Shown: in pieces, positions 27,258 through 64,000 of the stretch
Numbering within the stretch: position 1 is the stretch's first letter
Layout of the letters: each line of letters starts with the position of its first letter
Assembly: GCF_007994225.1 (NCBI RefSeq)
Contig: NZ_VLLL01000006.1
Coordinates: forward strand, 1-64,000
DNA from: Stackebrandtia albiflava
GTDB lineage: Bacteria > Actinomycetota > Actinomycetes > Mycobacteriales > Micromonosporaceae
Direction: 5' to 3'
DNA length: 64,000 nt
Notes under the pieces: model-generated
The model's input: only the letters and a program-made list of their open reading frames with translations
What the model was told of the DNA's origin: nothing
Database searches by the model: none
Translations under genes and position numbers: made by a program

Positions 27258-27333
27258 GCGCTCGTAGCTCAACGGATAGAGCATCTGACTACGGATCAGA
27301 AGGTTGGGGGTTCGAATCCCTCCGAGCGCGCCA
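27258..27333 (+). tRNA. tRNA-Arg (anticodon ACG)
   Basis: A 76-nt tRNA with encoded CCA. The acceptor stem pairs GCGCTCG with CGAGCGC, the D arm is AGCTCAACGGATAGAGC, the anticodon arm TCTGA-CTACGGA-TCAGA gives ACG (read as ICG after editing), and the T arm is GGGGGTTCGAATCCCTC. No tRNA-derived repeat or integrase is nearby. Confidence 0.97.
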
Positions 27334-47999: not shown

Positions 48000-48109
48000 T
48001 CCACTGTGCTCTCTGCCCGTAGAGAATCTACGAGCTGATTGACGAATGTGAATTTATTCGCCATCATGTGCTCAGCATGAAACACCCACCCCACGAGAAA
48101 GAGGTTTTC

Positions 48110-48763
48110 ATGTCCGGCAACCCCATCTCCCGGCGCCGCGCCCTGATGTTCGGCGCAGCGGGTCTGCTGGCCGCGCCGCTGGCCGCCGGTACCGCCCTCG
48201 CCGACCCGATCGGCACCAACGCGGTCAAGGTCTACCTCGACCCGGGCCACGGCGGCTCCGACCCCGGCGCCGTCGGAAACGGCCTGCAGGAGAAGAACCT
48301 GACGCTCGACATCGCGCTGCGGACCAGGACCCTCCTGGTCAACAACTGGGGTGTCACCGTGCGGATGTCCCGCACGAGCGACATCTACCGCAGCCTCAGC
48401 TACCGCAGCTCCGACGCCAACTCCTGGGGCGCCAGCCTGTTCGTCAGCATCCACATCAACGCCGGCGGCGGCACCGGCTTCGAGAGCTTCCGGTACACCT
48501 CCACCAGCTCCCGGACCGTCAACATCCACCGCGCCCTCCACCCCGCCGTCCTGTCCGGAATGCGTTCGGTCGCCTCGGTCACCGACCGCGGCCTCAAGAC
48601 CGCCAACTTCCACGTCCTCCGCGAGACGAGCATGTCGGCGATCCTCACCGAGAACCTGTTCATCGACCGCGCCTCCGACGCGGCACTGCTCGCCCGCGCC
48701 GACTTCCGCGCCGCCATCGCCCGCGGCCACGCCCAGGGCATCGCCAACGCCCTCGGCCTGTGA
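48110..48763 (+). CDS. Tat-exported N-acetylmuramoyl-L-alanine amidase
   Basis: A 217-residue amidase. The N-terminus SRRRALMFGAAG is a Tat twin-arginine signal ending near Ala31. The Amidase_3 zinc sites are His47 in VYLDPGHGGSDPG, a Glu in GLQEKNLTL, and the His in LFVSIHINAGGG, with the catalytic Glu in SAILTENLFI. It hydrolyses the amide bond of the peptidoglycan stem. ATG at 48110 with AGAAAGAGG upstream. It is downstream of the lysozyme-like secreted gene but separated by a terminator. Confidence 0.93.
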   Translation: MSGNPISRRRALMFGAAGLLAAPLAAGTALADPIGTNAVKVYLDPGHGGSDPGAVGNGLQEKNLTLDIALRTRTLLVNNWGVTVRMSRTSDIYRSLSYRSSDANSWGASLFVSIHINAGGGTGFESFRYTSTSSRTVNIHRALHPAVLSGMRSVASVTDRGLKTANFHVLRETSMSAILTENLFIDRASDAALLARADFRAAIARGHAQGIANALGL

Positions 48764-48769
48764 GACCAC

Positions 48770-48803
48770 GCCGGCGGCCACCGGCCAGGAGGTGGCCGCC
48801 GGC
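48770..48803 (+). terminator. Terminator of the amidase gene
   Basis: GCCGGCGGCCACC (48770-48782) pairs with GGTGGCCGCCGGC (48791-48803) in a 13-bp stem, seven bases after the stop. Confidence 0.8.
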
Positions 48804-48997
48804 AACGGTCCGTGCAGCCGGTGCGTCGCATCGCCCGGCGACGGGCTCCGGCAGCGGACTCCCCGCCTGGCCGGTGATCGCGCGGTGCGGTGACACGGCC
48901 GCGGTACGGTGACACGGGGCCGACGTCCCCGGTTCCCTTCCCGCGCGACGCGAACCGCCCGGAGGCACGAACGGGCGGAATCGCGGGCACCTTCACA
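48804..48997. other. Gene-free stretch upstream of dispersed element copy 1
   Basis: Together with the terminator and the element it makes up a 474-bp gene-free region (48764-49237). No other feature is visible. Confidence 0.4.
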
Positions 48998-49091
48998 CCC
49001 CACCCCTATCCGGGGGCAGGCCACCCACATCGCAAAGCATGACCGGGCGCACCGAGCGTCGTCAACCGGTTATTCAGCGTGGCTTCAGGTT
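48998..49091 (-). repeat. Dispersed intergenic element, copy 1
   Basis: On the plus strand the conserved blocks are CCCCACCCC, CCGGGGGC, CCACCC, AAGCATGAC, GTCAACCGGTTATTCAGCG and CTTCAGG. The distance from the first C-block to GTCAAC is 63 nt, against 64 and 63 in copies 2 and 3. Strand is given as minus because there the core reads TTGACG-N18-CATGCT, promoter-like. It lies 147 bp upstream of the GNAT gene at 49238. Confidence 0.85.
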
Positions 49092-49237
49092 CGGCGGGGG
49101 CCGGTGCGTCGCCGTGATTATTCGCGATGGCGAACGACCGGCGTCCGATCCGCCACGGGCCAGCCGGTCTCGCGGGTCACGGTGTCCCTCCTCGACCACG
49201 GCGCCCGGAGCAGTCCGCCGGGCGGCAGGATGCCCCG

Positions 49238-49636
49238 ATGGACATCGCGTACCGGTGGCGGGCACCGCTCACCGACATTCAGGTCAACACGCTCCACGCC
49301 GCCGCCTTCGGCCACCGGGTGCTTCCGGCGCCGACCATGGCACGGCTGCACCGGCACAGTCTCGGCTGGGTCAGCGCCCACGACGGCGACAGCCTCGTCG
49401 GGTTCGTCAACGTCGCCTGGGACGGCCGCCGGCACGCTTTCCTGCTCGACACCTGCACCGCACCGGACAGACAGGGCGGCGGTATCGGGACCGCCCTGGT
49501 CGCGCATGCCGTGGACCGGTCGCGCGACGCCGGTTGCGAATGGCTGCACGTCGACTACGAGGAACACCTCACCGGGTTCTACCTCGGCGCGTGCGGGTTC
49601 CGTCCCACGGCCGCGGGGTTGATCAGGTTGACGTGA
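49238..49636 (+). CDS. GNAT-family N-acetyltransferase, 132 aa
   Basis: A compact single-domain GNAT: LVGFVNVAWDGRRHAFLLDTCTAPDRQGGGIGTALVAHAVDRSRDAGCEWLHVD contains the V-x-x-x-x-R-x-x-G-x-G/A acetyl-CoA loop (RQGGGIGTA), and FYLGACGFRPT ends the fold. ATG at 49238. The final 14 nt overlap the end of a small convergent gene. Substrate unknown. Confidence 0.88.
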   Translation: MDIAYRWRAPLTDIQVNTLHAAAFGHRVLPAPTMARLHRHSLGWVSAHDGDSLVGFVNVAWDGRRHAFLLDTCTAPDRQGGGIGTALVAHAVDRSRDAGCEWLHVDYEEHLTGFYLGACGFRPTAAGLIRLT

Positions 49637-49775
49637 CCGGTTCCCCCGTCTCGTCGCCGGGCGCCCGGACGGTGGCGGCCGGGATCTCACATGAGTCGCC
49701 GTCGCACGCCACGGCGTCCGGATCACCCAGCAGCGTGAACGGCGACGGCGCCGTCTCGTCCCGTTCGGCGGTCAT
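49623..49775 (-). CDS. Small protein (50 aa) coupled to the DsbA/FrnE gene
   Basis: MTAERDETAPSPFTLLGDPD begins a 50-residue ORF whose core VACDGDSCEIP holds a C-x4-C pair. The ATG overlaps the DsbA stop (ATGA), so translation is coupled. I recall similar small C-x4-C proteins with an LLGDP motif downstream of FrnE-like genes in streptomycetes, but that is from memory and unverified. A redox or metal-binding role beside the thiol oxidoreductase is plausible; function unknown. Confidence 0.75.
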   Translation of the reverse strand: MTAERDETAPSPFTLLGDPDAVACDGDSCEIPAATVRAPGDETGEPVTST

Positions 49776-50440
49776 GACGCGTCGCCCCGGGCCGCCGCCG
49801 CCTGCTCCAACGCCGCCGCGAACACCTGGGGTTCCTGTGCGCCGGACACACCGAACTTCTCGTCGATGACGAAGAACGGCACCCCGGAGATGCCGTAGGC
49901 GCGGGCCTGCGCGATGTCGGCGGCCACGTCGTCGCGGTGGGCGTCCTCGGCGAGGGCCGCGCGCACCAGTTCCGGATCCAGACCCACCTCGGCGGCCAGT
50001 GCGATCAGTTCGGAGTCGCGGCCGAGATGACGGCCCTCCTCGAAGTACGCCTTGAGGAACCGCTCCTTGAGTTCCGCCTGCCTGCCGTGCGCCTTGGCCA
50101 GGTGCAGCACCTGGTGCGCCCGGTACGTCTTGGTGTGGCGGAGCGCGTCGAAGTCGTAGTGCAGCCCGACGGAGGCCGCGATGTCGGTGACCTGCTGAAG
50201 CATGCCCTTCACCGCCGCCGCGGGCATGCCCTTGTGCTCGGCGAGGAAATCGACCTCGCTGCCGTCGAAGTCCACCGGGGTGTCGGGGGCCAGCTCGAAC
50301 GAGTGGTACTCGACCTCGACGGCGGCGTCACCGCCGTTCGCCCGGTACCGTTCCACGCCGTCCTCGAAGCGTCGTTTGCCGATGTAACACCACGGGCAGG
50401 CGATGTCGGACCAGATGTCGACCTTCAACGGTGCGGTCAT
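49772..50440 (-). CDS. DsbA-family oxidoreductase (FrnE-like)
   Basis: A 222-residue thioredoxin-fold protein with CPWCYIG (Cys15, Cys18) at the start and the long helical insertion of the FrnE/2-hydroxychromene-isomerase subgroup. The cis-Pro loop ISGVPFFVIDEKFGVSGAQ is conserved. No signal peptide, so it is cytosolic; FrnE of Streptomyces and Deinococcus has disulfide isomerase activity. ATG at 50440 with GAGGAG upstream. Followed by the coupled 50-aa gene. Confidence 0.93.
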   Translation of the reverse strand: MTAPLKVDIWSDIACPWCYIGKRRFEDGVERYRANGGDAAVEVEYHSFELAPDTPVDFDGSEVDFLAEHKGMPAAAVKGMLQQVTDIAASVGLHYDFDALRHTKTYRAHQVLHLAKAHGRQAELKERFLKAYFEEGRHLGRDSELIALAAEVGLDPELVRAALAEDAHRDDVAADIAQARAYGISGVPFFVIDEKFGVSGAQEPQVFAAALEQAAAARGDAS

Positions 50441-50590
50441 TGCGTCTCCTCGTTGTTCGCGGTTCGCGGCGAGCGGGGTGGCCGTCTCGGGACGTACGAC
50501 GAGGCCGCCGTCACGCCGTCGCACGGCGGAGTCGCAGGATGCAACGGCCCGGGCAGGCGATCGATTCCCGGACGTGACCGGTTCCGCCGC

Positions 50591-52066
50591 TCACCGGGAG
50601 TCGGCATGCCAACCCGCGACCGCCGCGCGGGGTGTGGGCGCGGCGAACCACCACACGACGACGAAACCGACGACCAGGACGGTGGCGGGAAGCAGCAGCG
50701 ACTCCCCCATCGCCAGCGAGAACGCGTCACGGACCGGCCCGGGCATGTCCGTCTCACCGCCGCCGGCGTCGGCGGTGTCCATCCCGGGAACGTGCACGGC
50801 GAGCCGGGCGTTCATCATCGCGGCGATGCCCGCACTACCCAGGACCGCGCCGAACTGCCGGGTGGTGTTGTAGACGCCGGAGCCGGCTCCCGCCAACGCC
50901 GGAGGCAGATTCCGGGTGGCCGACGTGGACAGCGGAGCCCACACTCCCGCGTTGCCGAATCCCAGCAGCGCCACCGGCAACAGCAGCGACCACACCGGGA
51001 CGTCGGGGGACAGGATCGCGCCCAGCCAGACCAGTCCCGCGATCATGCAGGCGAAGCCGCCGGCGGCGAGGTACTTGGGGTTCATCCGGTCGACGAGCCT
51101 GCCGACCACCGGCGCGAGCACCCCGGAGATCACCGCCATCGGCGCCATCAGCAACGCCGCCTGGGTGGGACTGAAACCCCGCGCGAGTTGGGCGTAGAGC
51201 ATCAACGGCAGCGCCATACCCGTCACCGCGAACCCCATGCCGTTGATGGCGACGTTGGCGAGGCTGAAGTTCCGGTCCGCGAACAGGCGCAGCGGGACCA
51301 GCGGCTCGCGGCGGTTCCAGCGCTGCCAGGCGACGAACACCGCCAGCACGACCAGGCCGGTGGCCACCAGACTCCACACCGAGACCGGGCCGACGATCGT
51401 CCCCCAGTCGAAGGTCTCACCCTCCTGGATACCGAACACCAGGCAGAACAGGCCGACGGCCGAGAGGATCACGCCCGGGACGTCGAAGCTGTGGACGTGG
51501 GTGGGCAGGACCGGGACGAGCCGGAACGCCAGCACCCAGCCCACGACGCCGACCGGGACGTTGATGAAGAAGATCCACTCCCACCCGAGGCCGTCGACGA
51601 GCAACCCGCCCACCACCGGCCCCACGAGGGTGGCGACACCGGCAACCGACCCCCACAGTCCCATCGCGGTACCGCGCCGGTCGGGTGGGAACGTCCGGGT
51701 GATCACGGCCATCGTCTGCGGCGTCATCATCGCCGCGCCCAGGCCCTGCACCACGCGGGCGACGATGAGGCTCTCCACGGTCCCCGCGAAGCCGCACCAC
51801 GCCGAGGAGGCGGTGAACACCGCGAGGCCCGCGAGGTAGACGTTCTTGGGCCCGTACCGGTCGCCGAGGCGGCCGGTGATGAGCAACGGCACCGCGTAGG
51901 CGAGCAGGTAGGCGCTGGTGACCCAGACCGCCTCGGTGATGTCGGCTCCCAGGCCGGACATGATGGCGGGCATCGCGACCGACACGATCGTGGAGTCGAC
52001 CAGGAGCATGAAGAACCCGATGACCAGTGACCACAACGCCGGCCATGGTCCGGTCCGCTCCGGCAT
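50591..52066 (-). CDS. DHA2-family (EmrB/QacA) MFS exporter
   Basis: A 491-residue, 14-helix drug exporter. N-terminal SLVIGFFMLLVDSTIVSVAMPAI contains the DHA2 motif LDxTIVNVALP-like signature (here LVDSTIVSVAMP), and motif A (GRLGDRYGPKNVYLAGL) follows in the loop 2-3. It is followed by the DsbA gene, in the same direction but 150 bp away. No regulator is adjacent. Confidence 0.93.
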   Translation of the reverse strand: MPERTGPWPALWSLVIGFFMLLVDSTIVSVAMPAIMSGLGADITEAVWVTSAYLLAYAVPLLITGRLGDRYGPKNVYLAGLAVFTASSAWCGFAGTVESLIVARVVQGLGAAMMTPQTMAVITRTFPPDRRGTAMGLWGSVAGVATLVGPVVGGLLVDGLGWEWIFFINVPVGVVGWVLAFRLVPVLPTHVHSFDVPGVILSAVGLFCLVFGIQEGETFDWGTIVGPVSVWSLVATGLVVLAVFVAWQRWNRREPLVPLRLFADRNFSLANVAINGMGFAVTGMALPLMLYAQLARGFSPTQAALLMAPMAVISGVLAPVVGRLVDRMNPKYLAAGGFACMIAGLVWLGAILSPDVPVWSLLLPVALLGFGNAGVWAPLSTSATRNLPPALAGAGSGVYNTTRQFGAVLGSAGIAAMMNARLAVHVPGMDTADAGGGETDMPGPVRDAFSLAMGESLLLPATVLVVGFVVVWWFAAPTPRAAVAGWHADSR

Positions 52067-52182
52067 CCGTGAAGCCTCCCGCCCCGCGACTCCGCCCGCC
52101 CGGCGTGAGGGCGGCCGGGCGCCCACCGAGGCTATCGGACCGGGGGGCCGCCGCCGGGCGGGTCGCCGATTCCGGGTGCCGG

Positions 52183-52524
52183 TCAGCCCCAGCCCAGCGC
52201 GTGCAGTCTCTCGTCGTCGATGCCGAAGTGGTGGGCGATCTCGTGTACGACGGTCACCGCGACCTCCTCGACCACCTGCTCCTCGGTGTCGCAGACGCGC
52301 AGGGTGGGCAGCCGGTAGACGGTGATCTTGTCGGGCAGCACGGCCCCGTAGTCCCAGCCCCGTTCGGTCAGGGCGTAGCCCTCGTAGAGTCCGAGGAGGT
52401 TCTGGTCGGGTCCCTCGGGCGCGTCCTCGACCACTATCACCACGTTGTCCATCATGGACAAGAGTGCTGCGGGCACCTCGTCCAGCGCCTCCGAGACCAG
52501 TTCCTCGAATCGCTCCGCCGACAT
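52183..52524 (-). CDS. Zincin-like metallopeptidase (DUF1025-type)
   Basis: A 113-residue protein with zinc site VVHEIAHHFGIDDERL (HExxHxxGxxD) near the C-terminus and the family start SAERFEELVSEALDEVPAALLSMMDNVVIVVED. The gene is divergent from serS, the usual neighbourhood in actinobacteria. It is a putative protease of unknown substrate. ATG at 52524 is used; GTG codons just upstream are alternatives. Confidence 0.88.
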   Translation of the reverse strand: MSAERFEELVSEALDEVPAALLSMMDNVVIVVEDAPEGPDQNLLGLYEGYALTERGWDYGAVLPDKITVYRLPTLRVCDTEEQVVEEVAVTVVHEIAHHFGIDDERLHALGWG

Positions 52525-52591
52525 CTCCACAGCCACGACCCGAAGGATATGACGTCGCCCTCCTCCACCGCTACGAGTAACCTTTCTCTTC

Positions 52592-53848
52592 GTGATCGAC
52601 CTGCGAGTACTGCGAGAGAATCCCGACCTGATCCGGCGCAGCCAAGAACTGCGCGGCGAATCCACCCGGCTGGTTGACGATCTCGCCTCCGCCGACACCG
52701 CCCACCGCAACGCCCTGCAGCGCTACGAGTCGCTGCGCGCCGAACAGAAACAGTTCGGCAAGAAGGTGTCGGCGGCCTCCGGTGACGAGAAACAGCAGCT
52801 GCTCGCCCGCACCCGGGAACTCTCCGGAGCGGTCAAGGCCGCCGAGAACGCCGTCACCACCGCCGCCGAGGCGCTCCGCAACGCACAGTTCGCCATCCCC
52901 AACCTCGTCGAGGAAGGCGTCCGGCCCGGCGGCGAGGACGACTACACCGTCCTGCGCGAGGTCGGCGAGATCCGCACACCCGACCCGTGCCGCGACCACC
53001 TGGAACTCGGCGAACTACTCGGCGCCATCGACATGGAACGCGGCGCCAGGACCTCGGGAGCCCGGTTCGGCTACCTGACCGGCGTCGGCGCCCAGCTCCA
53101 ACTCGGAATGCTGCAACTGGCCGTCCAGTACGCGCTGGAACACCGGTTCACCCCGATGATCCCGCCCGTCCTGGTACGGCCCGACGCCATGGCCGGCACC
53201 GGCTTCCTCGGCGCGCACGCCGAAGAGGTCTACTACATCGAACGCGACGACCTCTACCTCGTCGGCACCTCCGAGGTGCCGTTGGCGTCCTACCACTCCG
53301 GAGAGATCCTCGACCTGACCGAGCCGCGCCGCTACGCCGCCTGGTCCACCTGCTTCCGCCGCGAGGCGGGCAGCTACGGCAAGGACACCCGGGGCATCAT
53401 CCGGGTCCACCAGTTCGACAAGGTGGAGATGTTCTCGTACTGCCGGCCCGAGGACGCCGCCGCCGAACACGAACGCCTCCTCGCCTTCGAGGAGGACATG
53501 CTCGGCAAGATGGAACTGCCGTACCGGGTCATCGACACCGCCGCCGGCGACCTGGGCTCCTCGGCCGCCCGCAAGTACGACTGCGAGGCGTGGCTGCCCA
53601 GCCAACAGCGGTACCTGGAGCTCACCTCCACGTCGAACTGCACCACCTTCCAAGCACGGCGGCTCGGCGTGCGGTACCGCGACGAGGACGGGAAACCCCG
53701 CACCGCCGCGACGCTGAACGGCACCCTGGCGACCACCCGGTGGCTCGTGGCGCTGCTGGAGAACCACCAGCGGCCCGACGGTTCGGTGTACGTGCCGAAG
53801 GCGTTGCAGCCGTTCGTCGGCCGTGAGGTCCTCGAACCGGTCGGCTGA
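52592..53848 (+). CDS. serS: Seryl-tRNA synthetase
   Basis: A 418-residue class II synthetase. The N-terminal coiled-coil arm (residues ~27-100) reads the tRNA variable arm: [31 protein letters not shown]. Motif 2 is in [27 protein letters not shown] and motif 3 in [23 protein letters not shown] start gives [18 protein letters not shown]. tRNA-Ser(GGA) is at 6233. Confidence 0.98.
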
Positions 53849-53861
53849 CCGGCCACACGCT

Positions 53862-54359
53862 TCAGGACCCGGCGGGTGTGAACAACTCGATCGCCCGCCG
53901 GGTCGAGGCGACCAGTTCCGGGTCGCCCTTCACCAACCGCAGCGCCAACGCCTCGTGCAGCACCGTGCCGGCCTCGCCGGTCTCGCCCGACTCCGCCAGG
54001 CACTTCCCGAGATGCTGCAGCGCGAAGTCCAGCAGCTCGGGGACCGAGGCACGCGCCAGTTCCACGGCACGCCGGTACTGCGGCAGTGCCGCCGCCGGGT
54101 CGCCGGCGTACCTCGTCACGTCCGCCCGGTTCACCATCACCGCGAGACGGCGGCGATCGGTGTCGGCCGCCTCGTAGGCGGCGTCCAGCAGCCCGGCCGC
54201 CGCCTCGTACTCGCCGGTCAGCAACCTGCCGAGACCGGCGGCGCGCAACTCCGCGAAGCCCTCCGGTTCACCGATCCGGGCCAGTTCGGCGTCGAGCGCC
54301 GCCCGGTCGGTGGGCACCATCCGCAACCGTTCGTCGTAGCCGATCAGGTGATACACCAC
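53862..54359 (-). CDS. TPR-repeat protein, 165 aa
   Basis: A helical-repeat protein with tetratricopeptide-like pairs: GLGRLLTGEYEAAAGLLDAAYEAA, NRADVTRYAGDPAAALPQYRRAVELARA and LGKCLAESGETGEAGTVLHEAL. It is convergent with serS and probably a scaffold of unknown partner. GTG start. The dispersed element copy 2 (54421-54516), read on the minus strand, lies directly upstream. Confidence 0.8.
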   Translation of the reverse strand: MVYHLIGYDERLRMVPTDRAALDAELARIGEPEGFAELRAAGLGRLLTGEYEAAAGLLDAAYEAADTDRRRLAVMVNRADVTRYAGDPAAALPQYRRAVELARASVPELLDFALQHLGKCLAESGETGEAGTVLHEALALRLVKGDPELVASTRRAIELFTPAGS

Positions 54360-54420
54360 GGCGTGAGCCTATGGGCCGCCCGGACACCGGGGACGGCGGG
54401 ACCGCCGGGCGCCCTGAACG

Positions 54421-54516
54421 CCCCACCCCGACCGGGGGCAGACCACCCGGTCGGCTCGAAGCATGACAAACCGGCCGAAACCACGTCAACCGGTTATTCA
54501 GCGCGCCTTCAGGTTC
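54421..54516 (-). repeat. Dispersed intergenic element, copy 2
   Basis: Blocks CCCCACCCC, CCGGGGGC, GACCACCC, GAAGCATGAC, GTCAACCGGTTATTCAGCG and CTTCAGG in the same order as copy 1. On the minus strand the core reads TTGACG-N18-CATGCT and points at the TPR gene starting 60 bp further on. The full gap (54360-54614) holds no other feature. Confidence 0.85.
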
Positions 54517-54614
54517 ACCGCGGGAGACGGCGCCCCGAGTCTTCAACCCTCGGCAACCATGAGTTGGCGCACACGCGGCGATCCCCGTCATCTCCACGCC
54601 GGTAATGTCGGAAC

Positions 54615-55451
54615 ATGAAGAAGCCCGGACTCGTCATCGTCGACCTCGACGGCACGGTGGTGGCACACGGCGCCGGAGACACCTCCCTCACCGCCGCGGC
54701 CGAGCCCAGCCCCGCCGTCATCGAAGCCCTCGCCGCCGTACAGGCCGCCGGCGTCCCCGTCGCCATCGCCACCGGCCGCGCCATCTGGGGCGCCCTCCGC
54801 ACCGCCCGGTCACTGGGCCTGACCCGCGGCCTGATCTCCGCCGCGCACGGTGCCGTCACCTACGACCTCGCCGCCGGCGCCGTCGTCGACTCCCACATGA
54901 TCGACCCCTCGCTGGCCGTGAAGAGCCTCGCCGCCGCCGACGTCCGCACCGCGTTCGCCGTGGAACTGGGCACGGTCGGTTGGCGGCACACCGCCGACTT
55001 CGCCCGCGACTTCCACAGTGACTGGGCCGACGTCGTCGACGTCGCGACACTGGCCGCCACCAGCACCCCGCGCCTCGCCGCCCGCCTCCCCGGCGGAAGC
55101 CGGTACGGCGCGGGCCTACGGTGCCCACTGGCCGGCAAACTCGCAAACGACGCCGCACTCGATCCCGGAATGTACTGTGTGGAGGTGGGCTTCAACGGCT
55201 GGATCGACATCGGACCGGCCGGAGTCACCAAGGCGACCGGCGCCGAGGCCATCGCCCGGCACCACGGGGTCTCGGCCGCCGACACCGTCGTCTTCGGCGA
55301 CGCCGCCAACGACCTGCCGATGTTCGGCTGGGCCGGGCACGCCGTCGCGATGGGACAGGCGGTGGACGAGGTCAAGGCCGCCGCCCACGAGGTCGCACCC
55401 GCCGTCGGCGACGACGGCGTCGCCACGGTACTGCGGAGGTGGTTTCGATGA
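54615..55451 (+). CDS. HAD-superfamily hydrolase, Cof/IIB type (first of a tandem pair)
   Basis: A 278-residue Cof-like phosphatase. Motif I LVIVDLDGTVV has the catalytic Asp; the cap is type C2; motif IV reads VVFGDAANDLPMFGWAGHAVAMG. Substrates of this group are sugar phosphates or related small molecules; the specific one is not known. It overlaps the next HAD gene by 4 nt. Confidence 0.92.
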   Translation: MKKPGLVIVDLDGTVVAHGAGDTSLTAAAEPSPAVIEALAAVQAAGVPVAIATGRAIWGALRTARSLGLTRGLISAAHGAVTYDLAAGAVVDSHMIDPSLAVKSLAAADVRTAFAVELGTVGWRHTADFARDFHSDWADVVDVATLAATSTPRLAARLPGGSRYGAGLRCPLAGKLANDAALDPGMYCVEVGFNGWIDIGPAGVTKATGAEAIARHHGVSAADTVVFGDAANDLPMFGWAGHAVAMGQAVDEVKAAAHEVAPAVGDDGVATVLRRWFR

Positions 55452-56263
55452 GTCCACTGCCCCGACTGGTCGCCACGGACCTGGACGGAACCCTGGTCCG
55501 CACCGACAACACGGTCTCGGAACGTTCACACCGGACACTCGCCCGGCTCGTGGAGCGCGGCGTCCACGTCGTGGGCATCACCGGTCGCGGCCCGCGACTG
55601 CTCCGCCTCTGCCGCGACGACATCCCCAGTGCCGGGCACCTCGTTCTGGCGCAGGGCGGCTACGTGTACCACTGCGACGGTCCCGACTCGGCGGTGCCGT
55701 TGCGAGAGACCGTCATGCCGGGCGACCGGGCCGCCGCGGTCGTGGAACTGCTGGAACGGCACGGCGGTGACCTGACCGTCATCGCCGAGTGCGACCCCGG
55801 GCACGAGGCGCCGCTCATCGGCGCGGTGATCCCGGACTGGCCGTGGCCGGTGCCGATCCTCGGCTGTGAACGGGAGGACATCTTCCGGGGCCCGGTCATC
55901 AAGACCTTCGTGCGCAGCATGACCGTGCCGGCCCTGGAGCTGTTGGAGATCGCGCGCTCGGTGGTGCCGGCCGATCTGGCGTCGGTCACCGAGGCCGGCA
56001 TCGGTTTCGTCGAGATCTGTCCACCCGGGACCACCAAGGCCACCGGACTGGCCTACGTCGCCGACCGGCTCGGCGTCGACAGCCGCGACGTCATGGTCTT
56101 CGGCGACGCACTCAACGACCTGCCCATGTTCGAGTGGGCCGGGCGCGCCGTGGCGATGACCGGCGCGCACCCCGACGTCAAGGCCGCCGCGGACGAGGTC
56201 ACCGGCTCCAACGACGAGGACGGCGTCGCCACCTACCTGGAACGGCTGCTCGCGACCGCGTGA
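55448..56263 (+). CDS. HAD-superfamily hydrolase, Cof/IIB type (second of a tandem pair)
   Basis: A 271-residue paralogue of the preceding gene: motif I LVATDLDGTLVRTD, motif IV VMVFGDALNDLPMFEWAGRAVAMT. The two differ mainly in the C2 cap, so they likely act on different phosphates. ATGA overlap with the first gene. The tandem pair downstream of serS recalls the HAD gene near serS in mycobacteria. Confidence 0.92.
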   Translation: MSPLPRLVATDLDGTLVRTDNTVSERSHRTLARLVERGVHVVGITGRGPRLLRLCRDDIPSAGHLVLAQGGYVYHCDGPDSAVPLRETVMPGDRAAAVVELLERHGGDLTVIAECDPGHEAPLIGAVIPDWPWPVPILGCEREDIFRGPVIKTFVRSMTVPALELLEIARSVVPADLASVTEAGIGFVEICPPGTTKATGLAYVADRLGVDSRDVMVFGDALNDLPMFEWAGRAVAMTGAHPDVKAAADEVTGSNDEDGVATYLERLLATA

Positions 56264-56321
56264 CCCGCTCGGTATGGCGTCGTCTTGACGGACGTCAGCC
56301 GGGCGTGACAGTCTGTGTGCC

Positions 56322-57710
56322 ATGCCGGGCCGTCACGATCGACCACAGGGGATCACCGCACTGTGGGACGCCACGGCCGTCGCGGTCGTCGGCGCCTCCG
56401 ACCGGCCGGGATCCATCGGGGGAACGGTCCTCGACCACCTCGCGCGCGCCGGGTACCGGGGGAACGTCTACCCCGTGCACCCCTCGGCGGCGACCGTGCG
56501 CGGCATACCGGCGCACCGCAAGGTCACCGACCTGCCGGAGACCGTGGACGTCGCGGTCCTCGTCATCCCCGCCGACGCGGTCGCCGACAGTCTCCTCGAC
56601 TGCGCCGCCGCCGGGGTGTCCACCGTCGTGGTCACCTCCTCCGGCTTCGCCGACGCCGGACCGGCCGGTGCCCGCGCCGAGGCCGCGCTCGCCCGGACGG
56701 CCGCAGAACACGGCATGCGGATCCTCGGCCCCAACTGCATCGGCGCCGCCGACATCCACACCGGCCTGATCACCGGTTTCTCCCCCATGTTCCACGGATA
56801 CGACCATTCGCGGCCCGGCGGCCTGGCGGTCGTCAGCCACTCCGGCGGCATCGGTTTCGGCATCGCCAGTCTCGCCGCCGAACGCGGCCTGCGGCCCGGC
56901 TGGATCGTCACCACCGGCAACGAGTGCGACATCACCGCCGGAGAGGTCATGGCGGCCCTCGCGGAACGACCCGACTGCACCGGCGTGGTCGCGTACCTGG
57001 AGTCGGTGCCCGACGAGGACCGGTTGGCAGCGCTCGCCGCGACCGGAGTGCCCGCCGCCGTGCTGCTCACCGGTCACTCCCGGGCAGGGGCCGCCGCGGC
57101 CGTCACCCGGCGGGGCCGCACCGGCGACGAGGACCCGGCCGTGTTCCACCGTCACGGCGTCACCGTCGCCGCCGACGTCCCCGCCCTGCTGGACCACGCC
57201 GCCGGATTCGCGATGCCCCCGATGACCGGGAACCGGGTCGCGGTCGTCACCACCTCGGGCGGGGCGGGCATCCTCGCCGCCGACGCGATCCACCGGTCCC
57301 GGTTGCGGCTGGCGGAACTGTCGGACACGACACGGGACCGGCTCCGCCGGACACTCCCGGGATTCGCGTCGGTGGACAACCCGCTGGACGTCACCGCGAG
57401 CGTCATCGGCCGGCCGGAACTGCTGGTGGAGAGCCTTCGCGCCCTCGTCGACGACGACGGCTGCGACGCGGTACTGGTGTCGCTGTGCGTCCTGGCGGCC
57501 GGGCAGGCCGACGCCGCGGCGGACGTCATCATCGCCGTCGCCGGGTCCGGTAAACCGGTCGCGGTGTCCCGCACCGGTGCCGATTCGTTGTCGCCGCGGC
57601 TGCGTCCCCGGCTGGCCGACGCGGGCATCGGCGTGTACGCCACACCGGACGCGGCGGTGGCCGTGCTGGACGCCGCCCGCACCGACCGTTGGGGGACGAC
57701 ATGGACGTGA
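56322..57710 (+). CDS. NDP-forming acyl-CoA synthetase, alpha-type subunit
   Basis: A 462-residue protein: CoA-binding Rossmann domain at about residues 15-115 (VAVVGASDRPGSIGGTVLDHL), then two succinyl-CoA-ligase-like flavodoxin domains (VVSHSGGIGFGIASLAAERGL; GGAGILAADAIHRSRLRLAEL) without the ATP-grasp beta domain. This is the ADP-forming acetyl/acyl-CoA synthetase alpha architecture; the phosphohistidine site is not obvious. It overlaps the next CoA ligase by 10 nt, so it belongs to the same pathway. Confidence 0.85.
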   Translation: MPGRHDRPQGITALWDATAVAVVGASDRPGSIGGTVLDHLARAGYRGNVYPVHPSAATVRGIPAHRKVTDLPETVDVAVLVIPADAVADSLLDCAAAGVSTVVVTSSGFADAGPAGARAEAALARTAAEHGMRILGPNCIGAADIHTGLITGFSPMFHGYDHSRPGGLAVVSHSGGIGFGIASLAAERGLRPGWIVTTGNECDITAGEVMAALAERPDCTGVVAYLESVPDEDRLAALAATGVPAAVLLTGHSRAGAAAAVTRRGRTGDEDPAVFHRHGVTVAADVPALLDHAAGFAMPPMTGNRVAVVTTSGGAGILAADAIHRSRLRLAELSDTTRDRLRRTLPGFASVDNPLDVTASVIGRPELLVESLRALVDDDGCDAVLVSLCVLAAGQADAAADVIIAVAGSGKPVAVSRTGADSLSPRLRPRLADAGIGVYATPDAAVAVLDAARTDRWGTTWT

Positions 57711-59179
57711 CGACCCTGTTCGACCGCGCCGCCGTCCGGTTCCGCGACCGTGTCGCCCTGGAGGGGCCGCAGGGCACCCAGACGTTCGCCGAGCTGGCGT
57801 CGCGGGTGGCGCGGCTGGCCGGGGTGTTGCGGGACATGGGCCTGCGTCCGGGTGACCGGGTGCTGGACCTGCAACCCAACCAGAACAGCGTCGTCGAGGC
57901 CGACCTGGCGTGCATGCGCGCCGGGCTGGTCCGGGTCGCGTTGAACTACCGGCTGCACACCGACGACTGGGACCGGATCGCCGCCGACTGCGAACCCGCA
58001 GGGCTGCTGTGCGACGCCTCGCTGGCCACCCGGGCGGCGGGCCTGTACGACCGGCTGCCCGCCAACCTCACGATCGGCGGCGACCACCTGGAACGGCTCG
58101 AACGCGCCGACCCGTTGACCCTCCCGGTGTACTCCGACCTGGTGTCACTGAACTACACGTCCGGAACGACGGGGACCCCCAAGGGGGTGCGCCGCCACCA
58201 CCGGCACCGGCTCACCTCGATGACGAACATGACGCTCGACGTGTTGGGAGGACTGCCCGGCCCCGGCGACACGTACCTGCACGCCGGGCCGATCAGTCAC
58301 ACGTCCGGCCTGTTCGTGCTGCCGTTCCTGACGGCGGGCGCCCGGCAGATCATCCACACCGGCTTCGACACCGACGCGGTACTCGACGCCTTCACGCACC
58401 GGGGTGTCACCCACACCGCGCTGGTGCCGACGATGATCGCGCGACTGCTCGGCTCCCCCGACCTGGAGTTCCAGCCGGGACTGAAGATGTTGGCGTACGC
58501 GGGCGCCCCGATGTCGGCCGCGCACATCCGGGGCGCCCGCGAACGGATCACCGGGGCGCTGGTGCAGTACTACGGGCTGGTGGAGGCGATCCCGCCCGTC
58601 ACGGTGCTGACCCCCGAGGACCACGCCGACGCCGTCGACGGCCGCCCCGAACTGCTGGCCTCGGCGGGCCGGGCGGCCCGGCTCGTGGACCTCGCCGTCG
58701 TCGACGAACACGGCGTGCCGGTCCCCGCGGGCGAGACCGGTGAGGTCGTCACGTGGGGACCGCACGTCATGCCCGGTTACTGGCGCGGCGAGTCCGACGC
58801 CAAGGCGTTGCGGGACGGACGGCTGGCGACCGGTGACCTCGGCAGGATCGGCCCCGACGGGCACCTGTGGCTCGTCGACCGGAAGGCCGACATGATCCTC
58901 ACCGGCGGATACAACGTGTACCCGCGGGAGGTCGAGACACTGCTCGCGGGAGTACCCGGCGTCGACCAGGTCGCGGTGTACGGCGCCGAAGACCCCGAAT
59001 GGGGGCAGCGGGTGACCGCCGCCTACACCGGGTCGGCGACGGAGGCCGAACTGCGGGCGCGTTGCGAGGCCGCCCTGGCCGGTTTCAAACGACCGAAGTC
59101 GTATCGCCGGCTCACCCGGTTCCCGCTCAACGCCACCGGCAAGATCGACAAGAAGGCGCTGGCCCGCGATGACCACTGA
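57701..59179 (+). CDS. AMP-forming acyl-CoA synthetase
   Basis: A 492-residue ANL-family ligase. The ATP-binding P-loop is SLNYTSGTTGTPKGVRRHH at about residues 146-164, with YYGLVEAIPPVTV (adenine), GRLATGDLGRIGPDGHLWLVDRKADMILTGGYNVYP (hinge, Asp and gate) and the catalytic Lys in LNATGKIDKKAL. It activates a short or branched carboxylic acid to its CoA thioester. The stop overlaps the mutase start by 11 nt. Confidence 0.92.
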   Translation: MDVTTLFDRAAVRFRDRVALEGPQGTQTFAELASRVARLAGVLRDMGLRPGDRVLDLQPNQNSVVEADLACMRAGLVRVALNYRLHTDDWDRIAADCEPAGLLCDASLATRAAGLYDRLPANLTIGGDHLERLERADPLTLPVYSDLVSLNYTSGTTGTPKGVRRHHRHRLTSMTNMTLDVLGGLPGPGDTYLHAGPISHTSGLFVLPFLTAGARQIIHTGFDTDAVLDAFTHRGVTHTALVPTMIARLLGSPDLEFQPGLKMLAYAGAPMSAAHIRGARERITGALVQYYGLVEAIPPVTVLTPEDHADAVDGRPELLASAGRAARLVDLAVVDEHGVPVPAGETGEVVTWGPHVMPGYWRGESDAKALRDGRLATGDLGRIGPDGHLWLVDRKADMILTGGYNVYPREVETLLAGVPGVDQVAVYGAEDPEWGQRVTAAYTGSATEAELRARCEAALAGFKRPKSYRRLTRFPLNATGKIDKKALARDDH

Positions 59180-60653
59180 AGAACCCGGAAGGTTCCCGTA
59201 CACGCGCGGCATCACCGCCGAGCCGCAGCCGTGGATCATGGGCCAGTACGCCGGGTTCGGGACCGCCGCCGACACCGGGGCCAGGTTCCGGGAACTCCTC
59301 GACGCCGGGCAGACCGGCTTCTCCGTGGCGCTCGACCTGCCCACCCAACTCGGCCTCGACTCCGACGACCCCCGCGCCGCCGGGGAGGTCGGGCGGGTCG
59401 GCGTCGCCGTCGACTCCCTCGCCGACTTCGAGACCCTGTTCGACGGGATCGACCTGTCCCGGGTCAGTCAGATCCGCACGACCGCGAACTCGATCGGTTT
59501 CGTGTGGGCGGCGATGTGCCTGGCGTTGGCGGAGGAACGCGGCATCGACCCGGGGGCGTTCGGCGTGTTCATCCAGAACGACGTCCTCAAGGAGTACTTC
59601 GCGCGCGGCACCCAGATCCTGCCCGTCCGGGCGGGTCTGCGCCTGGCGGTGGACACCATGGAGTACCTGTCCACGCACGCGCCCGGCTGGGTGCCGTTGG
59701 CGATGTCGGGCTACCACATCGCCGAAGCCGGCGGCGACGCCGCGACCGAGGTCGGCTACACCTTCGCCAACGCGATCGCGTACCTGGACGAACTCACCGG
59801 GCGTGGCATCCCGGTCGACCGGGTGGCCCCGTCGCTGTACACGTTCCTGTCCGTCGGCATGGACGTGCTCGGGGAGGTCGCGAAACTGCGGGCCGCCCGC
59901 CGCGTCTGGGCGGAGCTGGTGACCGAACGGTACGGCGCGACCGATCCCGCCAGTGCCCGGTTGCGCATCTTCGCGTTCACGGCCGGGTCGTCGCTCACCG
60001 CGCAACAGCCGCTGAACAACCTGGCCCGCACCGCGTTGGAGGCGTTCGCGGCGGCCTGCGGCGGCGTCCAGACCCTCCACGTGTGCGCCTACGACGAGGC
60101 GCTGGGCGTGCCGACGGCGGAGGCGGCGACACTCGCGTTGCGCACCCAGCAGATCGTCGCGCACGAGACCGGGGTCGCCGGGGTCGCCGACCCGCTCGGC
60201 GGGTCGTACGAGGTCGAGACGCGCACCGACCGGTGCGCCGAGGCCGTCCGCGCCGTCATGGCCGACATCGAGGACCGGGGCGGCGCGGTCGCCGCCATCG
60301 AGGCCGGGTACCAGCAGGAGCGACTCGCCGAAGCCGCCTACCGGCAGGCCCGGGCGGTCGAGACCGGGGACCGGGTCGTCGTCGGGGTGAACCGTTGGCA
60401 GACCCCGCCCGAGGAGTTGTCGGTGTTCCGGGTCGACCCGGCGGTCGAGTCGGCGCAGTGCGCGTCGCTGCGGCGGTTGCGCGACGAACGCGACGACACC
60501 GCCGTGGCGGCGGCGCTCAACGCCCTCACCGAGGCTGCGGAGAAGGGCGACAACATCGTCCCGGCGTGTCGGCGCGCCGTGCGGTGCCACGCCACGGTCG
60601 GGGAGATCATGTCCCGGCTCACCTCGGTGTTCGGGGCGTGGCGGCCGGGGTGA
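59169..60653 (+). CDS. Methylmalonyl-CoA mutase-type large subunit
   Basis: A 494-residue TIM-barrel substrate-binding subunit of the B12-dependent acyl-CoA mutase family. It has the IMGQYAGFGTAADTGARF segment, in which the Tyr of QYAGF is the MCM-type residue (Phe in isobutyryl-CoA and Ile in hydroxyisobutyryl-CoA mutases); the EYFARGTQILP Arg aligns with the carboxylate-binding Arg of MCM, and SGYHIAEAG holds the active-site His. It lacks the B12-binding domain, which must come from another subunit outside the window. The QIRTTANSIGFVWAAM segment departs from the usual SMTIN motif. With two CoA ligases upstream it probably rearranges a dicarboxylic or branched acyl-CoA. Confidence 0.85.
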   Translation: MTTEEPGRFPYTRGITAEPQPWIMGQYAGFGTAADTGARFRELLDAGQTGFSVALDLPTQLGLDSDDPRAAGEVGRVGVAVDSLADFETLFDGIDLSRVSQIRTTANSIGFVWAAMCLALAEERGIDPGAFGVFIQNDVLKEYFARGTQILPVRAGLRLAVDTMEYLSTHAPGWVPLAMSGYHIAEAGGDAATEVGYTFANAIAYLDELTGRGIPVDRVAPSLYTFLSVGMDVLGEVAKLRAARRVWAELVTERYGATDPASARLRIFAFTAGSSLTAQQPLNNLARTALEAFAAACGGVQTLHVCAYDEALGVPTAEAATLALRTQQIVAHETGVAGVADPLGGSYEVETRTDRCAEAVRAVMADIEDRGGAVAAIEAGYQQERLAEAAYRQARAVETGDRVVVGVNRWQTPPEELSVFRVDPAVESAQCASLRRLRDERDDTAVAAALNALTEAAEKGDNIVPACRRAVRCHATVGEIMSRLTSVFGAWRPG

Positions 60654-60669
60654 CGTTCCACGTGGAACA

Positions 60670-61059
60670 TCACCGCGGCGGCTCCGGCGGGTAGCCGCCC
60701 CCACCGTCCGACGCGTCCTCCGCGGCGCGTTCGTACCGGTTGCAGGGCCGCCGGCGGAGCCACACGTCCCAGCACTCCGCCGCCACGTACATGAGACCGA
60801 AGGCCCAGCCGTGGCGTCGCCACTGGGCGTCGCGATGATGCCGTTCGTGCGCCAGCAACGCGCGTCCCGGGGCCGCCGCGTCCCCGGCGGTCACGAAGCA
60901 GTCGCCCCACTGGGTGCCGCCCCGGCCGTACCAGCGGATCCGTCCGCAGCGACACACCCGCATGTCGGTGACGTCCTCGCATCGTCCACCGGTCGCCACG
61001 ACCAGCCTCTCGGCCAGCGCGCCCAACGTCCGGGACTGCCATTCGGCGAATCGCGACAT
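60670..61059 (-). CDS. Hypothetical protein, 129 aa
   Basis: A soluble protein with a central RALLAHERHHRDAQWRRHGWAFGLMYVAAE helix (HERHH, not a standard HExxH zincin) and two CxC (VCRCGRIRW). Convergent with the mutase operon by a 16-bp gap. ATG 61059 is chosen since the longer frame is divergent-promoter sequence. Function unknown. Confidence 0.6.
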   Translation of the reverse strand: MSRFAEWQSRTLGALAERLVVATGGRCEDVTDMRVCRCGRIRWYGRGGTQWGDCFVTAGDAAAPGRALLAHERHHRDAQWRRHGWAFGLMYVAAECWDVWLRRRPCNRYERAAEDASDGGGGYPPEPPR

Positions 61060-61125
61060 GCCGTACTCCGATCTCGGCGGGCCGCCGCGATCCGGAACCG
61101 GGGAGGCGCGGGCCCATAATGAGGT

Positions 61126-61800
61126 ATGCCCGAGCCGGTCGCCAAGTTCGCCGTCACCGTCGACCTGGTCATCCTGACGGTACAGCGGGACGTCCTGCAC
61201 GTGCTCACCGTGACCCGGGCCGTACCACCGTTCGAGGGGCGGGCGGCGCTCCCGGGCGGGTTCGTCCACCCGGACGAACCGCTTCCGGCGGCGGCGACCC
61301 GTGAACTGTCCGACGAGACCGGCCTACCCCACGACGCGGGGCACCTGGAACAGCTCGCCACATACGGCGAGCCCGGCCGCGACCCGCGCGGCAGGGTCAT
61401 CACCGTCGCCTACCTCGCGCTGCTCGCCGACCCGCCGCAACCGGCGGGCTCCGCCGACTGGACCGCGACCGGGCCGCTGCTCGCCGACCCGGCGGCGTTG
61501 GCGTTCGACCACCACCGGATCCTCTCCGACGGGGTGGAGCGTGCCCGCGCGAAACTGGAGTACTCGTCGCTCGCGGCGCAGTTCTGCCCGCCGGAGTTCA
61601 CCATCGCCCAGTTGCGGCGGATATACGAGACCGTGTGGGGGACCCGGTTGGACCCGAGGAACTTCCACCGGAAGGTGACCGGCACGCCCGGGTTCGTGGT
61701 CGCGACCGACCATCACACCAGCAGCGACCGGGGGCGACCCGCCCGGCTGTACCGGCGTGGCCCGGCCACCAGCCTGCACCCGCCGCTGCTGCGGCGCTGA
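61126..61800 (+). CDS. NrtR-like regulator (Nudix domain plus winged helix)
   Basis: A 224-residue protein. The Nudix fold at residues 8-135 has GGFVHPDEPLPAAATRELSDETGL, a nearly standard Nudix box. The C-terminal ~75 residues (FTIAQLRRIYETVWGTRLDPRNFHRKVTGTPGFV) match the winged-helix domain of NrtR and related ADP-ribose-sensing regulators. No NAD-synthesis gene is adjacent, so the target is unknown. ATG at 61126. Confidence 0.9.
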   Translation: MPEPVAKFAVTVDLVILTVQRDVLHVLTVTRAVPPFEGRAALPGGFVHPDEPLPAAATRELSDETGLPHDAGHLEQLATYGEPGRDPRGRVITVAYLALLADPPQPAGSADWTATGPLLADPAALAFDHHRILSDGVERARAKLEYSSLAAQFCPPEFTIAQLRRIYETVWGTRLDPRNFHRKVTGTPGFVVATDHHTSSDRGRPARLYRRGPATSLHPPLLRR

Positions 61801-61896
61801 CGGCGTGTCGCATCCGTGCGGTTCTCGTGGCGGCGGCGGCTAACGTCACGGAACCGCGGTCCGTGACACCGGACCGCATCGACTCAGGAAGTTGCC

Positions 61897-62700
61897 GTGA
61901 ACCAGCCGTATCCGTACCAGTCACCTCCGCCGGGTGGCGCGCCGTACCCGCCCGGGCCACCTCCCCCGCCGCCATCCGGCCAGGTACCCGGCGGCCCGCC
62001 GCCGATCACGCCACCGGGGGCTCCCGCCGCGAAACCGCCGCGAAACCACACCGGGATCATCATCGCGGTGATCGTCGTCGTCCTGCTCGGGGTGGCGGTG
62101 TGCGGCGGAGGTGCCTGGTACCTGTTCGGTGGCGGCGCCGAGACCATCGAGGACGCCACGACGCCGCAGCCGGAGTATCCGCAGGCGTACCAGGTCACGG
62201 CCCCGCCGTACGACGGCGCCGCCCTGACCGGCGAGGACCCCTCGGACGTGTGCGACCTCGTCGACACGGACCGGTTGGGGACGGTGATGCCGGTCGTGTC
62301 GGCCGCCCCGGACGGCTACTACGACTGCGCGGTCACGTTGAACCACGAGGCGACGTTCCCGGAGTCGGGGCATCAGGGGCAGTTCGGTGTGACCGTGGAC
62401 GTCCACCCGGACGTCGCCACCGCCGACGCGGCGTTCTCGGCCGACCTCGACTACTGGGACGGCGAGGACCTGGGCACCGGTGAGTTCCAGACCGAGGCGG
62501 CGTTGCTGGTCGGCACGGAGACGGACTCCTCCCGTTGGGTGCACCTGGTCGTGCGGCAGGGGGCGCTGACGCTCTCGGTGCACTTCGAGGTCGAGGACAG
62601 GATCGACGGCGACACGCCGCCGGGCGTGCCATTGGACGTGTTGCGGAACATGGCGGTCGACACGGCCAACGAGGTGCTGAACGGCTTGAGGACGGGTTGA
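61897..62700 (+). CDS. Pro-rich membrane-anchored protein, 267 aa
   Basis: A Pro/Gly-rich N-terminus (residues 1-50), one transmembrane helix at about 52-78, and a ~185-residue extracytoplasmic domain with two Cys (DVCDLVD, YYDCAVT) starting after a GGGAETIEDATTP linker. This DUF3558-like secreted-domain architecture is common in actinobacteria. GTG start preceded by GGAAG. Function unknown. Confidence 0.8.
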   Translation: MNQPYPYQSPPPGGAPYPPGPPPPPPSGQVPGGPPPITPPGAPAAKPPRNHTGIIIAVIVVVLLGVAVCGGGAWYLFGGGAETIEDATTPQPEYPQAYQVTAPPYDGAALTGEDPSDVCDLVDTDRLGTVMPVVSAAPDGYYDCAVTLNHEATFPESGHQGQFGVTVDVHPDVATADAAFSADLDYWDGEDLGTGEFQTEAALLVGTETDSSRWVHLVVRQGALTLSVHFEVEDRIDGDTPPGVPLDVLRNMAVDTANEVLNGLRTG

Positions 62701-63326
62701 CCCGCCGTCTCCCGTGGCCCCGGCTCCGGGGGCGCGGGAGACGGGCCGGTCGGTGCGCATCAAGGCCGGGTTCGCGGTGTGGGTCGGTGGGGTTCGGGTT
62801 CGCCGGTCGGCCGGGCGTGGCGTTCACGACGTGCGCGGTCCGTCCGCGTGACGAGCCCGGGCCGGCTGAGCCGTGCGTCGTCGGCGCCGACGGCCCGGGT
62901 TGCCCGACGCAGAGCACGGTGGAACGGGGGGCGCCGGGCACCGTGGGGCGACACTCGGCCGGGCGGGACGGGGCTCGGCAAGCACGGTGCGGTCCGTAAT
63001 CCGGCGGGGCGGCGGGTGTGCCACGCGTGGGCAGCGATAGCCGGCGGGCTCGCCTGAAGCCCCGCTGAATAACCCGTTGACAGTCTCGTGACCTGACAGT
63101 CACACTTCGTCGTGAGGGTGGTCAGCCCCCGGTAAGGGGTGGGGCGTGGCCGGGCACGGAATCACCGGCCCTGGGCGTCGGCGCGGATCGGTTCCGTCGA
63201 CGGCACGCCGATCGCGCGGGCACCGCCGCTGAACACCCCCGGCGGCCGGCACCTCGGCTCCCACATCCGGCGTGTCGTCCGATCGCACCGACCGGGCCCT
63301 TCACCTCTGACCCACGGCGTCGGGGG
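62701..63326. other. Convergent intergenic region with dispersed element copy 3
   Basis: A 626-bp region between the convergent Pro-rich membrane gene and MerR gene. The only structured feature I can support is the dispersed element at 63052-63143. The frames through it are Arg-rich shadows; no terminator-quality hairpin stood out. Confidence 0.5.
63052..63143 (+). repeat. Dispersed intergenic element, copy 3
   Basis: Inverted relative to copies 1 and 2. Read on the minus strand it has CCCCACCCC, CCGGGGGC, GACCACCC, GAAGTGTGAC, GTCAACGGGTTATTCAGCG and CTTCAGG with the same spacing. On the plus strand its core reads TTGACA-N18-CACACT, the best -35 of the three. It faces the 3' end of the MerR gene. 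Confidence 0.85.
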
Positions 63327-63713
63327 TCACGCCGCGGAGTCCACCGGACCGTTCCGGCTTCCGGCGGCCACCGAGATCACGTCGTCCAGGACGCCGCGCG
63401 CCCGTTCGAGTTCACCGATCATCCGGTCGATGCGTTCCCGCTCCGACGACAGTTCCTCCACCAGCCAGGGCGTCGCCGAGGCCGCCGGTCCGCCGTCGGC
63501 GTCCCGCATGCACGGTAGGATCTGCGCGATCTTGGCGCTGTTGAGTCCGGCGGCGTACAACTCCTGGATCCGGATGACCCGGTCGACGGCCGCCTCACGG
63601 TAGACGCGTTGCCCCCGGGGCGTCCGGTCCGAGACCAGGAGCCCCTGCTGTTCGTAGTACCGCAGCGACCGTTCACTCACTCCGGTCCGGCGGGCGAGTT
63701 CCCCGATGCGCAT
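63327..63713 (-). CDS. MerR-family transcriptional regulator
   Basis: A 128-residue MerR protein: HTH at residues 1-30 MRIGELARRTGVSERSLRYYEQQGLL, wing SDRTPRGQRVY, then a coiled coil with LVEELSSERERIDRMIGELERARG and no obvious metal-binding Cys pattern. Divergent from the OYE gene across a perfect dyad at 63738; control of it is inferred. The ATG at 63713 is the standard MerR start; 63725 would add four residues. Confidence 0.9.
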   Translation of the reverse strand: MRIGELARRTGVSERSLRYYEQQGLLVSDRTPRGQRVYREAAVDRVIRIQELYAAGLNSAKIAQILPCMRDADGGPAASATPWLVEELSSERERIDRMIGELERARGVLDDVISVAAGSRNGPVDSAA

Positions 63714-63737
63714 GGTCCGTCCCACTCCGACTTGCCT

Positions 63738-63753
63738 CTGACATTGGTGTCAG
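63738..63753. promoter_or_regulatory. MerR-type operator between MerR and OYE genes
   Basis: CTGACA-TTGG-TGTCAG is a perfect dyad lying between a TTGCCT -35-like and a downstream TACCGT or CTACCG -10-like sequence, the long-spacer layout that MerR proteins act on. The dyad is centred 25 bp upstream of the ATG of the OYE gene. Confidence 0.75.
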
Positions 63754-63769
63754 GTTCTACCGTACCGGC

Positions 63770-64000
63770 ATGACGCATTCACCGTTGTCGACGCCTTACC
63801 GTCTCGGAGACCTCGTACTGCCGAACCGCGTCGTCATGGCCCCGATGACCCGCTACCGCGCCACCGAGGACGGTACGCCGCTGCCGATCGTCGCCGACTA
63901 CTACGCGCAACGGGCGACCGCCGCGTTGATCGTCTCGGAGGGCATCTCCCCCAGCGCACGCGGCCAGTCCGACTGGCGGATCCCCGCGCTGGAGACCGAC
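63770..64000 (+). CDS. Old Yellow Enzyme-family ene reductase (5' part)
   Basis: The first 77 codons of an NADH:flavin oxidoreductase/alkene reductase: STPYRLGDLVLPNRVVMAPMTRYRA has the family's FMN-binding MAPMTR motif, and YYAQRATAALIVSEG is the following helix-strand. The 3' end is outside the window. Likely induced through the divergent MerR regulator, perhaps in response to reactive electrophiles. Confidence 0.93.
   Translation, partial: MTHSPLSTPYRLGDLVLPNRVVMAPMTRYRATEDGTPLPIVADYYAQRATAALIVSEGISPSARGQSDWRIPALETD

Follow-up and report, generated by a model that had tools for sequence, protein, structure and literature searches.

The window analyzed here is a 64,000-nucleotide stretch of Stackebrandtia albiflava contig NZ_VLLL01000006.1, from a genome of 5.55 Mb in 13 contigs. 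Three of its intergenic gaps each hold a copy of an element of about 95 bases. Copy 1 spans 48994..49089 on the minus strand, read in the direction of its predicted promoter and delimited by matches to models R1 and R2 (see below), and lies between an amidase-like and a GNAT-like gene. Copy 2 (54418..54513, minus strand, model matches) lies between divergent TPR-like and HAD-like genes, and copy 3 (63053..63148, plus strand, model match and alignment) between convergent membrane-protein-like and MerR-like genes. No gene was called in any of the three gaps, in agreement with the original prediction; the calls come from an uncurated GC3-based script, and the neighboring genes were named by eye. 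Every block that had been named was found in the predicted order in all three copies, with the same distances of 63, 64, and 63 nt from the first block to GTCAAC, and the limit of copy 3 is corrected slightly, as its first block begins at 63144 and not at 63143. With up to three mismatches, the 19-nt block occurs three times in the window against 0.01 expected, a count reached by none of 100 shuffles. The window also carries genes for tRNA-Ser(GGA) at 6233-6320 and tRNA-Arg(ACG) at 27258-27333, and two tRNAs were the only Rfam matches over its whole length at gathering score.

In promoter direction, the element consists of CCTGAAG-N5-CTGAA, 6 to 7 nt, TTGAC, 17 to 19 nt, NANNNT, about 7 to 15 nt, and a GC-rich motif of the form GGGTGG-NNNG-CCCCC-short loop-GGGGTGGGG, a scheme from which single copies deviate. 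In copy 1, the sequence has the direct repeats CCTGAAG and CTGAA, 11 nt apart, at 49073..49089, a -35-like TTGACG at 49060..49065, a -10-like CATGCT at 49036..49041 with 18-nt spacing, and the conserved motif GGGTGG..CCCCC..GGGGTGGGG, as delimited in alignments, at 48998..49026, all on the minus strand. The same features of copy 2, also on the minus strand, are found at 54497..54513 (repeats), 54484..54489 (TTGACG), 54460..54465 (CATGCT), and 54421..54448 (motif, from alignments), and those of copy 3, on the plus strand, at 63053..63069 (repeats), 63077..63082 (TTGACA), 63101..63106 (CACACT), and 63116..63144 (motif, from alignments). A direct repeat of 11-nt period beside a predicted sigma-70-type promoter is thus present, in the Stackebrandtia copies only.

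The profile search of the genome and its relatives that had been proposed along with the prediction found further copies. The 19-nt block (three mismatches or fewer) occurs at 21 places in the S. albiflava genome, two of which (L019 and L020) were discarded because they do not have the other blocks. A second block, CCCCACCCC..CCGGGGG, occurs at 20 places, 17 of them inside elements already found and three (L040, L045, and L047) in extra copies that were later confirmed by a model. R1, a model of sequence alone whose 19 source copies match it by construction, gave 22 matches in S. albiflava, 18 in the complete genome of its congener G003, 5 in the congener G002, one partial match in G004 (same genus; 6,841,557 bp), and none in G001. 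Over 150 genomes of the family, with stricter filters, R1 added a single genome with a short and weak match. R2, built from 44 copies and scanned with stricter filters over 300 family genomes, matched 13, namely, the three known genomes, G045, seven Actinoplanes genomes, G013, and G295. Weak matches in one of the Actinoplanes (G161), in G013, and in G295 were not counted, and the match in the six remaining Actinoplanes and G045 is limited to the GC-rich half. Among 396 genomes of the phylum, again under stricter filters, the motif model R3 detected only S. albiflava and one partial 22-nt match. A blastn search with copy 1 for phage or plasmid carriage gave no match. Two viral contigs fitting the motif pattern were rejected, one without the box and promoter module and the other matching in a low-complexity stretch.

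The promoter-like region has a fixed geometry. The string CTGAA-N6-CTGAA-N7-TTGAC is exact in 19 of 22 S. albiflava copies and present with one mismatch in one more, and all 20 of its matches in that genome are elements; the N7 spacing is that of S. albiflava, and the gap of 6 nt between CTGAA and TTGAC in G003 and G002 does not fit the pattern. The search for a -10 element relied on the two letters that vary least in bacterial -10 elements, A in position 2 and T in position 6. In the three genomes together, 44 of 45 copies have NANNNT at 17 to 19 nt from TTGACN (22/22, 17/17, and 5/5 aligned copies from S. albiflava, G003, and G002, respectively); given common descent, these are not 44 independent events, though subfamilies carry unrelated spacers. 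The 45th copy, L086 (3347759), has a shortened region without NANNNT. At other spacings (8 to 16 and 20 to 29 nt), NANNNT is found in at most 1/22, 5/17, and 1/5 aligned copies, and the hexamers themselves vary (CATGCT, GACACT, TATGGT, AATCGT, and AAAAGT). This constancy strongly supports the predicted promoter, TTGAC-N18-NANNNT on the other strand. The accompanying claim that the sequences between the blocks are not conserved was correct in part. Mean pairwise identity among the S. albiflava copies is 0.84 to 1.00 in the blocks and 0.30 to 0.79 in the spacers, so that the spacers diverge more but are partly shared, and because of this sharing we take the copies to descend from one unit. Five G003 copies (L090, L091, L094, L095, and L096) are 0.90 to 0.98 identical pairwise outside the 15 nt right after TTGAC; those 15 nt are only 0.27 to 0.73 identical and of fixed length. 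Two of the five, L091 and L094, have four CCTGAA-like tandem repeats upstream of the promoter and not two.

That the GC-rich part could fold was also predicted, but the data do not demonstrate it. Of the cells of the proposed stem, 93.6% are paired, against 39 to 63% for slid controls; in a wider set the figures are 97.5% and 40 to 74%. However, 3' letters dealt at random pair slightly better than the real partners (94.3% and 97.9%), no base pair shows two-sided compensatory changes in either alignment set, and the window copies have no stability in excess of shuffles (z of -0.26, -0.82, and +0.80). Because compensatory pairs and extra stability are both absent, it may be the sequence of the motif, and not a fold, that is conserved; the length of the loop inside the motif varies between copies. 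A G-quadruplex was discarded, because none of the 45 copies has one in its minimum-energy form. The 45 nt after the element gave no convincing hairpin or terminator (mean z of -0.27, standard error of 0.12, over 45 copies), and the RNA sequence past the motif is not conserved, which counts against a small-RNA reading. An encoded peptide was likewise rejected: RTG stands at the end of the element in 32 of 45 copies, yet no reading frame is conserved from it, frames 0, 1, and 2 having medians of 61, 19, and 64.5 codons and peptides that look unrelated.

The element disperses as a unit, and similarity between copies mostly stops at its edges. Pairwise blastn between copies gave 197 pieces that overlap the element, of which 156 are confined to the interval from -6 to +106 relative to its start and 40 reach up to about 47 bases past that interval; full-length pieces are 71 to 94% identical. 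One pair of S. albiflava loci, L107 (C1:53910-54640) and L115 (C4:227190-227900), is the only one to share far more than the element, with a 738-bp segment at 90% identity and blocks of 300 and 275 bp. By eye, the end CCTGAAG bears no relation to the reverse complement of the other end, GGGGTGGGGCRTG, which gives no terminal inverted repeats, and the best flank match over the target-site duplication offsets tried was 0.35, near the expectation for GC-rich DNA. The window from 46 to 62 kb is syntenic with G003, where the gap of copy 1 carries an inverted copy, copy 2 is not seen in the corresponding gap, and neither the element nor the membrane-protein-like gene is present at the place of copy 3. 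S. albiflava L118 and G003 L097 share the same gap and orientation, the G003 gap being much longer. With L118/L097 kept and copies 1 to 3 changed in G003, some positions are therefore old and others have turned over. The original prediction preferred selection or function over recent duplication; the blocks are indeed constrained, but the unit also disperses, since most copy pairs share the element and not the flanks and its presence differs between species. No autonomous partner was seen in the 13-contig assembly, where 19/21, 20/20, and 20/20 matches of three partial patterns were whole elements. The Y1 transposase domain of RAYT type (PF01797), the only transposase family searched, is absent from G003, G002, and G004, gave a partial match in S. 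albiflava, and occurs once in G001, a genome without the element.

Outside Stackebrandtia, some Actinoplanes and a small number of further actinobacteria have the GC-rich motif without the upstream module of that genus. When 84,980 species were scanned with a pattern, 11 stretches were found, four in Actinoplanes liguriensis, two in A. cyaneus, two in a Pseudonocardiaceae bacterium, and one each in Allonocardiopsis, Murinocardiopsis, and Marinactinospora. In each of the 11, the 130 nt upstream contain one or more TTNTCCACA boxes, which for L200 holds only on the other strand. R3 found copies in 4 of 39 Actinoplanes genomes (11, 5, 2, and 2 copies). In all 23 distinct Actinoplanes copies examined, a count restricted to fetched loci and leaving out two G247 copies (one with boxes on the other strand), two 9-mers stand exactly 17 nt apart from start to start. 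The pairs fit TTGTCCACA at 15 to 18 of 18 positions, the best of 2,000 random sequences of 70% GC reaching 13, and in 20 of the 23 the distance from the end of the second box to GGGYGG is exactly 43 nt (42, 42, and 54 nt in the others). In the part of PMC4285127 consulted, TTGTCCACA is the high-affinity DnaA box of Streptomyces coelicolor and Mycobacterium tuberculosis. The Actinoplanes upstream module is, by its sequence, DnaA-box-like, and no such pair was seen in the aligned Stackebrandtia copies. An identical 28-nt variant of the motif occurs in both Actinoplanes L228 and G002 L099, behind different upstream modules.

Within Actinoplanes, G219 (L203) and G269 (L215 and L248) have a copy in the gap between a NUDIX-like and a pstB-like gene, both named by eye. 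In G233, where the NUDIX protein is 94% identical, the element is missing as one 107-bp alignment gap, TAGA|AAAGAC, with smaller gaps further downstream and with edges less clean against a second empty site, L250; no target-site duplication is obvious at the 107-bp site. A script assigned 30 Actinoplanes loci to one with the element (L248), four with an inverted distant cousin, and 25 with neither, one of the 25 being broken off by a contig end. The cousin, TGTGGATAA..TANNNT-like..GGCCAGCCCCCTGGG with a single TGTGGATAA box, lies inverted in the same NUDIX/pstB gap of four Actinoplanes species (L258, L262, L263, and L272), and the script found no more copies of it in 400 kb of one 10.7-Mb Actinoplanes genome.

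Several known systems resemble the element in part. The copies had no Rfam match at an E value of 1 or below (positions 48000-64000), nor did the elements at eight loci of relatives at 2 or below, so a riboswitch or known RNA, including 6C, was dismissed, and a narrow search of the open-licence literature did not find the element described. MIRU, Correia, BOX, and REP/REPIN elements are dispersed intergenic units of about 100 bp, some with promoters. The element shares their size, intergenic dispersal, and promoter and differs in that neither terminal inverted repeats nor target duplication was seen, the promoter spacing is constant, and the complete G003 genome with its 18 copies has no Y1 transposase domain, on which ground REP/RAYT elements were rejected. 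In the portions of PMC8186281 consulted, the streptococcal CiaR csRNAs are preceded by the response-regulator direct repeat TTTAAG-N5-TTTAAG. As here, several intergenic sibling units per genome stand behind a repeat of 11-nt period; up to 22 copies are present here against five in Streptococcus pneumoniae (PMC8186281), and judged from the same portions the element also differs in its other sequence, in the lack of a detected terminator, in the DnaA-like boxes of Actinoplanes, and in its unit-wise dispersal. LhrC of Listeria, as given in excerpts of PMC4132741, is a five-copy small RNA under one two-component system and is comparable as a multicopy family, differing in its CU-rich target sites from the GC-rich motif found here. 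CutR was excluded as the regulator, its motif TAWATAAA, as given in part of PMC12802291, being unlike CTGAA, and sequence matches in the consulted parts of PMC3498368 and PMC10433416 were primers.

Three other explanations of these data were weighed. A purely selfish MITE-like element, with a promoter and boxes that function solely in its own mobility, is fairly unlikely in our judgment. It would account for similarity that stops at the element edge in 156 of 197 blastn pieces between otherwise unrelated flanks, for the 107-bp presence or absence in Actinoplanes, for the two window copies missing in G003 and the inverted copy in the third gap, and for the patchy distribution (S. albiflava and one partial match among 396 phylum genomes; 4 of 39 Actinoplanes), which suits a selfish element equally well. 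It fits less well with the lack of inverted repeats, target-site duplication, and a visible autonomous partner, with the Y1-free G003, with the block-wise constraint on the promoter, and with positions common to several Actinoplanes species. A cis-acting DNA site that binds or titrates a regulator or DnaA, its GC-rich part bound as DNA and any transcription incidental, is unlikely: the rigid 17-nt spacing of paired DnaA-box-like 9-mers and a motif strictly kept in sequence without compensatory change argue for it, but the Stackebrandtia copies have a promoter at a fixed place and no such boxes, and the variable loop is less suited to a rigid protein site.

The third alternative, that the element supplies the downstream gene with a portable promoter and leader, as in a regulon, we consider very unlikely. 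The flanking genes are convergent at 9 S. albiflava copies, both against the promoter at 7, along it at 2, divergent at 1, and unclear at 3; the counts in the same order are 3, 2, 9, 2, and 2 in G003 and 9, 3, 4, 0, and 7 (unclear or at an edge) in Actinoplanes. The promoter geometry and a co-directional downstream gene in 11 of 16 classed G003 copies fit such a role, but this gene is co-directional in just 3 of 19 classed copies in S. albiflava and 4 of 16 in Actinoplanes, no frame is conserved from the terminal RTG, and distances to neighboring genes vary widely. Because the orientation of the downstream gene is inconsistent, the element is not simply the promoter of the next gene.

The explanation that we favor, at about an even chance, is a set of dispersing, independently transcribed sibling small-RNA genes with a lineage-specific control module. 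Each copy would be a self-contained transcription unit, in which tandem boxes for a regulator precede a housekeeping-type promoter, and transcription would start a few bases ahead of the GC-rich motif and yield a short RNA with this motif in its 5' part. The 22, 18, and 5 copies per genome would yield sibling small RNAs with a common 5' motif, presumably acting in trans. Timing of expression would be set by the upstream boxes, putative response regulator sites in Stackebrandtia, where the 11-nt direct repeat has OmpR/PhoB-type geometry, and putative DnaA sites in Actinoplanes, where they are paired. The unit would spread from one gene gap to another as a single piece of about 95 to 107 bp, with selection keeping intact promoters. 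Since it recurs in distant relatives with another type of box, it is probably an RNA-producing family able to spread, and two of the original suggestions, a small-RNA gene family and a miniature mobile element, may both be true.

More tentatively, and with considerable doubt, the copies may be dispersing small-RNA genes of a new class, up to about 20 per genome, in which the GC-rich 5' motif is constant and the control module can be exchanged. This module would be connected to DnaA, and through it to replication, in Actinoplanes and other actinobacteria, and rewired to a direct-repeat-binding regulator in Stackebrandtia. To our knowledge, few small RNAs are known to couple with replication initiation. 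If this reading is true, an RNA gene family would spread in the manner of a mobile element and swap its regulator wholesale while the motif of its product stays fixed, and the version with DnaA boxes would be a direct handle on a possible coupling between replication initiation and small RNAs in actinobacteria.
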